Positions 24,352 to 36,599 of a DNA stretch of 64,000 nt are shown piece after piece. Numbering within the stretch: position 1 is the stretch's first letter; each line of letters begins with the position of its first letter. The notes below the pieces were generated by a model, which saw only the letters and a list, made by a program, of their open reading frames with translations, was not told the origin of the DNA and searched no databases. This DNA is from Chaetoceros tenuissimus. Lineage: Eukaryota > Bacillariophyta > Thalassiosirophyceae > Chaetocerotales > Chaetocerotaceae. The stretch is taken from positions 2,604,001 to 2,668,000 of the forward strand of contig BLLK01000069.1 in NCBI GenBank assembly GCA_021927905.1, in the 5' to 3' direction. Both the position numbers and the translations under genes were made by a program.

Positions 24352-24921
24352 ATGAGTGGGCTTGTTCTTCAAAAAGGAAGGAAATACTTTGTGCCATCTA
24401 CACATACTTGGTTGAAAATTACATCTTTATTCTCAGATACAAAAAACTTTAAATATATGACACAAGTACAATTGCAATTTGAGGTAGGCATCACAGATAG
24501 AGGTCTTGATGATATAGGAGATATAACATCTATTCAATTCCCAGTACATTTAATGTCAGCCAGTAGTACTCAGCAGAACACATGGCACAAAGTTAGAAAA
24601 GACCAAGAGATTTTGAATATTCATTGGGATGCTCATTTAATCACAAAGGCTGATGAACTTTACCATACAATATGGGAAACTATTGATGAAAAAACAACTA
24701 TAAAATCACCAGTAGATGGAGTGTGTATAGGTGTGAATGATTTTTCAGCACAGAACATGAAATATCGTGTTCATTCTGATAAATCCTTGTTTTCAATGCG
24801 TACCAGTATGGATCATTTACAAGAATTGAATGATCAAGGTCAACTTATGGATTGCAAAGAATATACGAATTACGTCAAGACCTTGGAAGCAGGCATTTTC
24901 TTTGATCCTGACCAATCTTGA
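24352..24921 (+). CDS. GcvH-like (lipoyl-domain) protein lacking the usual lipoyl lysine
   Basis: 189 aa, no intron. The fold follows glycine-cleavage H protein in order: RKYFVPSTHTWLKI (compare KYxxxHEWV), then FEVGITDRGLDDIGDITSIQFP (compare VGITxxAQxxLGDIVxVxLP), then WETIDEKTTIKSPVDGVCIG followed by VND (compare ESVKAASDIYSPVSG). Aligning SPVSG with SPVDG puts Asp112 where the lipoylated Lys should be; the nearest lysine is Lys114. Two inserts (~27-38 and ~68-95) lengthen it beyond the usual ~125-130 aa. No mitochondrial presequence is obvious. It is probably a paralogue with a non-glycine-cleavage role, or a lipoyl domain modified at a shifted Lys. Confidence 0.75.
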   Translation: MSGLVLQKGRKYFVPSTHTWLKITSLFSDTKNFKYMTQVQLQFEVGITDRGLDDIGDITSIQFPVHLMSASSTQQNTWHKVRKDQEILNIHWDAHLITKADELYHTIWETIDEKTTIKSPVDGVCIGVNDFSAQNMKYRVHSDKSLFSMRTSMDHLQELNDQGQLMDCKEYTNYVKTLEAGIFFDPDQS

Positions 24922-33798: not shown

Positions 33799-35223
33799 GA
33801 AAAGGGGAACAAATAGATAGTACAAATACATGCTTTTTTAAAAGAAAAAATTATAATACGTTTACATGACTTGATAATTTGGACCTCCTCCTCCTTCTGG
33901 AACAGTCCAGTTGATATATTCTCCAGGCATCTTGATGCTACAGCACTTGCAATGAACACAGTTTTGTGCATTGATTACTAGCTTCGGACTATTGGACTTT
34001 TCATCTTCAACATATTCATAGACAGCAGCCGGGCAGAATCTACTCTCTGGAGCTGCATATTTTTGCATTGACACACTTTCTGGAATATTTTCAAGATGAG
34101 GCTTAATACGCAGATGAGCTCGTTGGTCATCATCATGATAAGTACCACTACGTTGTAAATTCGTAAGTAAGTCAAAAGTCAATACTCCATCGGGAGCATT
34201 GTATTCGATAGGTTCAAAGTTCTTTGCCTCTTTTGTGAAATCCGCATCACGTGTTTTGTGCTCCAATGTCCAAGGTTCATTCCCTTTTGTAATATGTGCC
34301 GCAAATCCGGAGTAAGCCAGTCCTGGAAGGAATCCAAACTTTGAAAATGCAGCATGTGTGTTTCGGACTTCGAATAGTTCTTTATGCACCCAAGAGTCTT
34401 TCATCTTATCTTCAAATGAAGATACTTCCATAAGATCATCTTCAGATACTTCGAAAGTCTCAGACACAGGTGCCTTCTCCGTGCTACTGAGAGAAATGGG
34501 ATATATTGCACCAATCCATTCAATTACATGAAAAGGGGAACAAATAGAATGTACATATACATGCTTATTTTAAAAGAAAAATTATTGCGTTTACATGACT
34601 TGATAATTTGGACCTCCTCCTCCTTCTGGAACAGTCCAGTTGATATATTCTCCAGGCATCTTGATGCTACAGCACTTGCAATGAACACAGTTTTGTGCAT
34701 TGATTACTAGCTTCGGACTATTGGACTTTTCATCTTCAACATATTCATAGACAGCAGCCGGGCAGAATCTACTCTCTGGAGCTGCATATTTTTGCATTGA
34801 CACACTTTCTGGAATATTTTCAAGATGAGGCTTAATACGCAGATGAGCTCGTTGGTCATCATCATGATAAGTACCACTACGTTGTAAATTCGTAAGTAAG
34901 TCAAAAGTCAATACTCCATCGGGAGCATTGTATTCGATAGGTTCAAAGTTCTTTGCCTCTTTTGTGAAATCCGCATCACGTGTTTTGTGCTCCAATGTCC
35001 AAGGTTCATTCCCTTTTGTAATATGTGCCGCAAATCCGGAGTAAGCCAGTCCTGGAAGGAATCCAAACTTTGAAAATGCAGCATGTGTGTTTCGGACTTC
35101 GAATAGTTCTTTATGCACCCAAGAGTCTTTCATCTTATCTTCAAATGAAGATACTTCCATAAGATCATCTTCAGATACTTCGAAAGTCTCAGACACAGGT
35201 GCCTTCTCCGTGCTACTGAGAGA
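33760..35223. repeat. Direct tandem duplication, two ~0.73-kb copies
   Basis: Copy 1 is 33760-34494 and copy 2 is 34493-35223 (offset 729 bp in the coding part). The unit holds the last 12 codons of the four-TM protein, the intergenic spacer and the last ~210 codons of ETF-QO. The ETF-QO coding part (over 600 bp) appears identical between copies by eye, but the ~75-bp spacer has about eight differences, including indels. The junction has a 2-bp overlap (GA). Copy 2 is attached to the complete gene; copy 1 is a truncated tail. It is either a real recent duplication or an assembly artefact from two alleles. Confidence 0.93.
33862..34494 (-). pseudogene. Truncated 3' copy of ETF-QO gene
   Basis: The ~210 C-terminal codons of ETF-QO, including the Fe-S motif CVHCKCC and the stop codon, without the FAD part, promoter or start. 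The reading frame is still open and identical to the full gene. It was created by the tandem duplication and is unlikely to make protein unless transcribed from a neighbour. Confidence 0.85.
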
Positions 35224-36599
35224 TTCAAAGACTGCTTCTCCAGCCAACTGTCCACTTTTGATTGCAGTATGGCTTCCTTTGATTTTCACTGAATTCAAGA
35301 AACCGGCAGAGCAACCAATTAACGCTCCTCCTTTGAATGTAAGCTTGGGAATTGCATATAAACCACCTTCGTTCAAAACTCTTGCACCATATGAAATGCA
35401 CGTTCCACCCTCGAAATGCTCTCTGATATCTGGGTGCTCTTTCCAACGTTGGAATTCTTTGTATGGGTTAATGTAAGGATTTTCATAGTCTAACCCTATA
35501 ACTAACCCAGCTATAGATGTGATGAAAAACTTGAATCAGAAAAACATTATGCAATATTTCAATTCATACGAATCATCTACTCGCACTTACCATGAACCAA
35601 GTTTGGTTCTTGATGGTACAAAAATGTTCCTCCGAATGTAGAATCATTCCATTTACTTTGTAAAGGATATCCCAAAGTATGCTGAACAAATCCCGACTTG
35701 AACTTTTCTTCTGGAATCTGCCAAACTTCCTTGATTCCCAGTCCATATGTCTGCTCATTTTTCCCATCTCTCAGCTTGAAGTGACTAATCAACTCTTCAG
35801 AACAACTTCCTCGTGCTCCTTCTGCGAACAGAGTCTGCCTAGCATGTAACTCAACTCCACGCTCAAATGTGTCTTTCGGATTTCCGTCTTTATCAATGCC
35901 CATATCTCGAGTGGCAATACCCATCACAGCGGATTTATCTTCATTGTACAAGACTTCGCTAGCTGAAAATCCTGGGTATACTTCTACACCTAGCTCTTCT
36001 GCTATTCCACCTAGATATCTGCACAACTGACCTAAACTAATGACAAAATTACCATGATTATCCAGCTGCTTTGGGAGGAATACCGAAGGCAAAGGATAAC
36101 TTTTGTCTTTTGTCAACATTAAAAATTCATCAGATGTAACGGCTGTAGCAGTGGATTCTTGTGTCTCCTCTAATTCTTTTTTCCAGTCAACGCCTGGTAA
36201 TAGTTCTTCAAGCGCTTTTGGATCAAATACATTACCGGATAAAATATGTGCACCAATTTCACTTCCTTTTTCAACTACACAAACACTGAGGTCGATATCT
36301 TTTTCTTGACAAAGTTGCTTGATCCGAATACTTGCTGCTAAACCAGATGGACCACCACCTACGATCAGGACATCGAAGGGCATAGACTCTCGTGGGGCAT
36401 TGAGCAAATCATCAGCATCACTTGAAAAAGATCTAGTAGGAATGTAAGATTGTGCAGAAGTCAAGACGCTTCTCCTATGGTGCAATTGCAAAGAAACATA
36501 ATTTCTTGCTGCTAAGAATGAAGCTGACTTGGGAGTCCTCTTTGTGATGTTACGAAGCAACCTTTTGGCAAGGCCTGAAGTTGCAATTCTTGCGCTCAT
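34591..36599 (-). CDS. ETFDH: Electron transfer flavoprotein-ubiquinone oxidoreductase
   Basis: Exons 36599-35591 and 35510-34591 give 642 aa. The 80-nt intron is GTAAGT...CTATAG and restores Ala (HG|AGLVIGLDYENPY, giving the family's VxIGL-YxNPY). The N-terminus is Arg/Ser-rich (mitochondrial presequence). FAD fold: FDVLIVGGGPSGLAASIRI at ~76-94. Later KGSEIGAHILSGNVFDP, LFAEGARGSCSEEL, and after the splice GGTCISYGARVLNEGGL, ALIGCSAGFLNSVKIKGSH (substrate and quinone regions), then the 4Fe-4S motif NCVHCKCCSIKMP and INWTVPEGGGGPNY. It passes electrons from ETF to ubiquinone in the inner mitochondrial membrane. The last Cys cluster reads CKCC rather than the usual CKTC. Confidence 0.96.

Follow-up and report, generated by a model that had tools for sequence, protein, structure and literature searches.

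A remote H-protein paralogue in the diatom Chaetoceros tenuissimus with an aspartate best aligned to the lipoyl lysine

A 64,000-nucleotide stretch of the Chaetoceros tenuissimus genome (assembly GCA_021927905.1, contig BLLK01000069.1, positions 2,604,001 to 2,668,000; hereafter the window) contains an intronless open reading frame (ORF) at 24352-24921 on the forward strand. It encodes a 189-residue protein that resembles GcvH, the H-protein of the glycine cleavage system, and has no lysine in the best-aligned lipoyl column. H-proteins are defined by a swinging lipoyl arm, on which the aminomethyl group passes from GcvP to GcvT. With moderate confidence, we lean towards the view that this protein is a non-lipoylated, non-catalytic paralogue with the H-protein fold that lies outside the Simiate family. 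We infer the fold, the lack of lipoylation and the non-catalytic role; the reading frame itself and its codons are observed directly.

Reading frame and homology to GcvH

The ORF is real and coding-like. Its extent, 189 codons plus a stop, agrees exactly with that given in a sequence-only reading of this DNA. Codon usage was scored against a yardstick of 19 long ORFs, picked among the other 36 ATG-initiated ORFs of at least 150 residues in the window. The ORF gave 0.149 bits per codon in its own frame and negative values in the five other frames, and the yardstick ORFs scored on themselves ranged from 0.015 to 0.249 bits per codon. The open stretch around the ORF spans 194 codons, whereas no stretch in 20 shuffled 64-kb windows was longer than 179 codons; the G+C content of the window is approximately 39%. 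The upstream sequence was read, by eye only, for a further exon that might encode a targeting peptide, and no strong GTAAGT-type donor was seen.

To score the protein against GcvH, we built a profile hidden Markov model from 73 sequences, comprising 72 prokaryotic GcvH proteins and the canonical GcvH exon of C. tenuissimus itself. The prokaryotic set came from a scan with the canonical GcvH as query, which returned 74 loci; L073 and L079, each shorter than 100 residues, were dropped. The protein matched this profile in two collinear blocks, residues 35-64 and residues 114-177, with a score of 14.2 bits; all of 20,000 composition-preserving shuffles fell below that score, the best reaching 10.0 bits. 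Omitting a single stretch within residues 65-118 (980 variants) raised the score to 25.6 bits, compared to a best of 10.9 bits among 200 shuffles given the same freedom. At the level of sequence comparison, we therefore regard the remote homology of the 189-residue protein to GcvH as established, above all because the profile test beats the shuffles.

These scores also bear on the idea that the resemblance reflects chance or a generic biotinyl/lipoyl-like barrel. The GcvH families gave E-values of 0.04-0.14 in family searches, beside an unrelated, chance-like NCBIfam match to OmpL37 at E 0.022 (14.2 bits), and the pairwise local alignment with the organism's own GcvH exon, which is weaker evidence than the profile, was equalled by 21 of 2000 shuffles. 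Set against the profile result, with its two collinear blocks and its rise on omission of a single stretch, we consider this explanation very unlikely. Two weak matches to Cmr4 in a PDB sequence search (E 0.33) were taken as chance.

Conserved blocks and the lipoyl-lysine column

A MAFFT alignment of 47 rows combined the protein with 46 prokaryotic GcvH proteins drawn from the retained set of 72. Both invariant columns are kept (Gly46 and Asn129), as are six of the eight near-invariant columns (His18, Glu109, Pro120, Gly123, Leu165 and Tyr171), the protein's own row being among those that define these columns. The two near-invariant columns that changed are the lipoyl lysine, which aligns with Asp112, and a tryptophan, which aligns with Phe147.

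The blocks of GcvH follow one another in the expected order on the forward strand. Residues 18-24 (HTWLKIT, 24403-24423), which include the near-invariant His18, correspond to HEW(V/L)(K/R)V. Residues 44-64 (EVGITDRGLDDIGDITSIQFP, 24481-24543) are the counterpart of VGITDyAqe.LGDIVfVeLP in the Pfam, profile and MAFFT comparisons and contain the invariant Gly46. Residues 109-117 (ETIDEKTTI, 24676-24702) occupy the ESVKAASDV columns both in the MAFFT alignment and in the best placement. They are followed by residues 119-129 (SPVDGVCIGVN, 24706-24738), which match SPVSGeivEVN in the profile and in MAFFT and end on the invariant Asn129. The C-terminal helix, residues 165-179 (LMDCKEYTNYVKTLE, 24844-24888), corresponds to LLdaeeYe.ll according to the profile, MAFFT and the structure model. 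Thus, the HxW, VGITD...GDI...P, E...SPVxG...VN and C-terminal helix blocks are collinear with those of GcvH/GCSH (Pfam GCV_H, PF01597), and the fold suggested by the model may be shared as well. The protein differs from GcvH in two insertions. Approximately 15 extra residues lie between HTWLKI and VGITD, and approximately 27-29 lie between the FP that ends at residue 64 and SPVDG, in or before the lipoyl hairpin. The region that holds the longer insertion, residues 65-108 (24544-24675), includes a modelled strand (86-96) and a loop (97-108) with Lys99. The sequence-only reading had held the fold motifs of the H-protein to be all in order. The resemblance does go beyond chance, but "all in order" overstates it in view of the two insertions, Phe147 in the tryptophan column and family scores below cut-off.

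In the lipoyl column, 72 of the 73 profile sequences have lysine and one, locus L069, has isoleucine. In the MAFFT alignment Asp112 occupies this column and residues Glu109 to Asn129 align without gaps, and no ESVKA-like motif with a lysine was found in the diatom protein. To survey other placements of the insertion, 1110 single-stretch omissions were scored against the profile. Asp112 was the best column occupant, at 25.6 bits, followed by Lys83 (22.8 bits), Gln85 (22.4), Arg82 (20.7), Lys114 (20.1) and Lys80 (19.3), with Thr98 (18.4) and Lys99 (16.2) lower still. Because the occupant depends on where the insertion is placed, the assignment of aspartate to the lipoyl column is a best alignment, with a margin of 2.8 bits, rather than a fact. 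The earlier assignment of Asp112 to this position is therefore sustained as the most likely one, by the MAFFT choice and the best of the 1110 placements, and qualified by the closeness of Lys83. The codons can be read directly: Asp112 is GAT (24685-24687) and Lys114, two residues away as the same reading had noted, is AAA (24691-24693). A sequencing error at codon 112 was rejected as an explanation, since conversion of GAT to AAA or AAG requires two base changes.

We also modelled the protein with AlphaFold2 guided by the GcvH alignment, which gave a mean predicted local distance difference test (pLDDT) score of 68.7 and a predicted template modelling score of 0.63. The model was read from its secondary structure only. 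Residues 97-108 separate strand 86-96 from strand 109-118, and pLDDT drops under 50 over residues 99-109. The second of these strands, which returns, carries both Asp112 and Lys114; Lys83 immediately precedes the first strand rather than sitting at the far end, and Lys99 is the sole lysine in the intervening loop.

Together, the placements and the model allow us to weigh a still-lipoylated variant, in which Lys83, Lys99 or Lys114 of a rebuilt hairpin would serve as the acceptor. An insertion at residues 84-112 would bring Lys83 into the column, and Lys99 sits in the modelled loop between the hairpin strands. However, Asp112 scores best and is the choice of MAFFT, and the model puts Lys114 inside strand 109-118 and Lys83 ahead of strand 86-96; the loop itself is of low confidence from residue 99 onward. 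In known lipoyl acceptors the lysine is presented at a tight hairpin tip. We therefore regard a shifted acceptor as rather unlikely. Of the three lysines, Lys114 had been put forward specifically in the sequence-only reading as a shifted lipoylation site; its placement in the column costs 5.5 bits relative to Asp112, and with its position inside a modelled strand this site is disfavoured.

Canonical glycine cleavage genes and the status of the extra copy

We searched the C. tenuissimus genome (41,027,912 bases on 68 contigs) for glycine cleavage genes. Contig C32 carries a canonical GcvH exon with ESVKAASDVYAPVSG, which scored 149.4 bits with Pfam GCV_H and was the only one above cut-off among four scored candidates. 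Judging from its sequence, the region upstream of this exon seems to comprise a mitochondrial presequence and then an intron. GcvP is encoded on C16 in a 967-residue frame, and GCV_T matches are found on C27, in two pieces, and on C34, in an 808-residue frame. Since canonical GcvH, GcvP and GcvT lie elsewhere in the genome, the protein at 24352-24921 is an extra paralogue, and the canonical GcvH on C32 rules out that it is the organism's sole H-protein. Together with Asp112 as the best lipoyl-column occupant, this gene complement supports the earlier suggestion of a paralogue outside glycine cleavage. The genome-wide Pfam search did not list the GcvH-like protein among its four candidates, and other weakly matching paralogues, a Simiate gene for example, could escape it in the same way.

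Several observations weigh against a genuine, non-lipoylated H-protein paralogue. The protein scores only 13.8 bits with Pfam GCV_H (E 0.057; cut-off 22.2) and 13.7 and 12.2 bits with the two NCBIfam GcvH models (cut-offs 117 and 115.85), and a PDB sequence search with E up to 1 returned no H-protein match. AlphaFold run on the single sequence gave a poor model (pLDDT 36.6), and the H-protein match of the AlphaFold2 model is partly circular, as that model was built on the GcvH alignment. Lys83 in the lipoyl column is only 2.8 bits below Asp112. No second copy of the protein was found by protein search of the genome, and no orthologue was found in viral contigs using six 8-residue patterns.

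Some of these points would fit a decaying pseudogene or degenerated gcvH duplicate, which could account for the weak scores, the insertions, the changed lysine and tryptophan columns, and a single copy with no relative found in its own genome or the viral contigs. The intact 189-codon frame, with coding-like usage in its own frame alone and an open stretch longer than any in the shuffled windows, speaks against decay. Moreover, the sequence is far from the organism's own GcvH, yet the structural columns are kept. We consider decay improbable.

The remaining GCV_H matches below cut-off look like one biotinyl-type domain and two lipoyl domains of the 2-oxoacid dehydrogenase E2 type. The latter (L004 and L005, around 1501-1632 on the small contigs C41 and C53) are near-identical and may be alleles that the assembly did not merge. 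The larger GcvT match on C27 (804441-805058, forward strand; L083) reads through one TAG, perhaps a short intron.

Relation to other H-protein-like families and possible role

Simiate/Abitram (FAM206) is a eukaryotic, GcvH-derived family that is not known to retain the lipoyl lysine or to be lipoylated, and the diatom protein could be a protist member of it. One report describes Simiate as thought to be derived from the H-protein, as localized to nuclear speckles in mammals, and as present in plants and protists, with a protist form that is about 20% identical to the H-protein (PMC3859600). Another associates it with actin in mammals (PMC3986562). Like Simiate/Abitram (FAM206A), the diatom protein is eukaryotic, H-protein-like and of similar size (189 residues, compared to 181 for the human sequence). 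However, no measurable pairwise similarity to that one human sequence was found: the local alignment scored 28, the mean for shuffled sequences was 28.8, and 1088 of 2000 shuffles scored as high. The human Abitram sequence itself matches the GcvH profile at 26.8 bits, whereas 5000 shuffles reached 7.4 bits at most, so the comparison has some power. It does so through its residues 115-170 in the local alignment. By contrast, the diatom protein retains the N-terminal block of true GcvH (VGITD...GDI...P) as well. On this evidence membership in the Simiate family is possible but unlikely. By analogy, we think of Simiate/Abitram as a comparable precedent for an H-protein-like domain outside metabolism.

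Two further proteins offer partial parallels. LbpA of the sHdr sulfur oxidation pathway is likewise a GcvH homologue outside glycine cleavage, but it is prokaryotic and is reported to be modified on its lipoate-binding lysine (PMC10332631). In a GcvH-like protein of Clostridium lacusfryxellense (L069) the lipoyl lysine is replaced by isoleucine (ESVIATS); this protein is otherwise a good GcvH, scoring 120 bits with Pfam, and it differs from the diatom protein in being bacterial and without the insertion. L069 (565-951, forward strand) is the only GCV_H match above cut-off among the 13 scored candidates of the C. lacusfryxellense genome, where another candidate, at 21.2 bits, falls short of the cut-off.

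Returning to a non-lipoylated paralogue as the preferred reading, the protein would be a divergent H-protein that keeps the hybrid-barrel fold without canonical lipoylation, its lipoyl hairpin probably rebuilt by the insertion of approximately 27-29 residues. A protein without the acceptor lysine cannot carry the lipoyl arm for glycine cleavage, and so it would not shuttle aminomethyl groups from GcvP to GcvT. The canonical GcvH would do the enzymatic work, and the extra copy is most likely a non-catalytic protein repurposed for binding or regulation, by analogy with Simiate/Abitram. Diatoms use glycine cleavage in photorespiration. If the pseudo-H-protein binds the same partners as GcvH, it would be a candidate regulator of that process; if it binds nothing of the glycine cleavage system, it would be one more repurposed scaffold. 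A more elaborate proposal, which we regard as a long shot, is that it represents a diatom-specific family of non-lipoylated H-proteins in which the enlarged hairpin replaces the cofactor arm, occupies docking sites of glycine cleavage or lipoylation enzymes, and competitively regulates photorespiratory glycine flux. A eukaryotic H-domain copy apparently without the lysine would add, beside Simiate, another cofactor-free use of the H-protein fold. No lysine-less H-protein in diatoms is named in the titles or abstract openings of the literature surveyed.

The GcvH-like ORF is flanked by two ORFs on the opposite strand, of which one contains a MORN repeat and the other matches no Pfam family with E of 0.01 or lower. 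Elsewhere in the window, two ORFs on the reverse strand (33862-34431 and 34591-35160) encode identical 189-residue products that correspond to Fer4_ETF_QO, the C-terminal part of ETF-ubiquinone oxidoreductase. They are 729 bases apart and lie downstream of the N-terminal part at 35577-36599 on the same strand. This repeat may reflect a genuine tandem copy of the last exon, or it may have arisen in the assembly.
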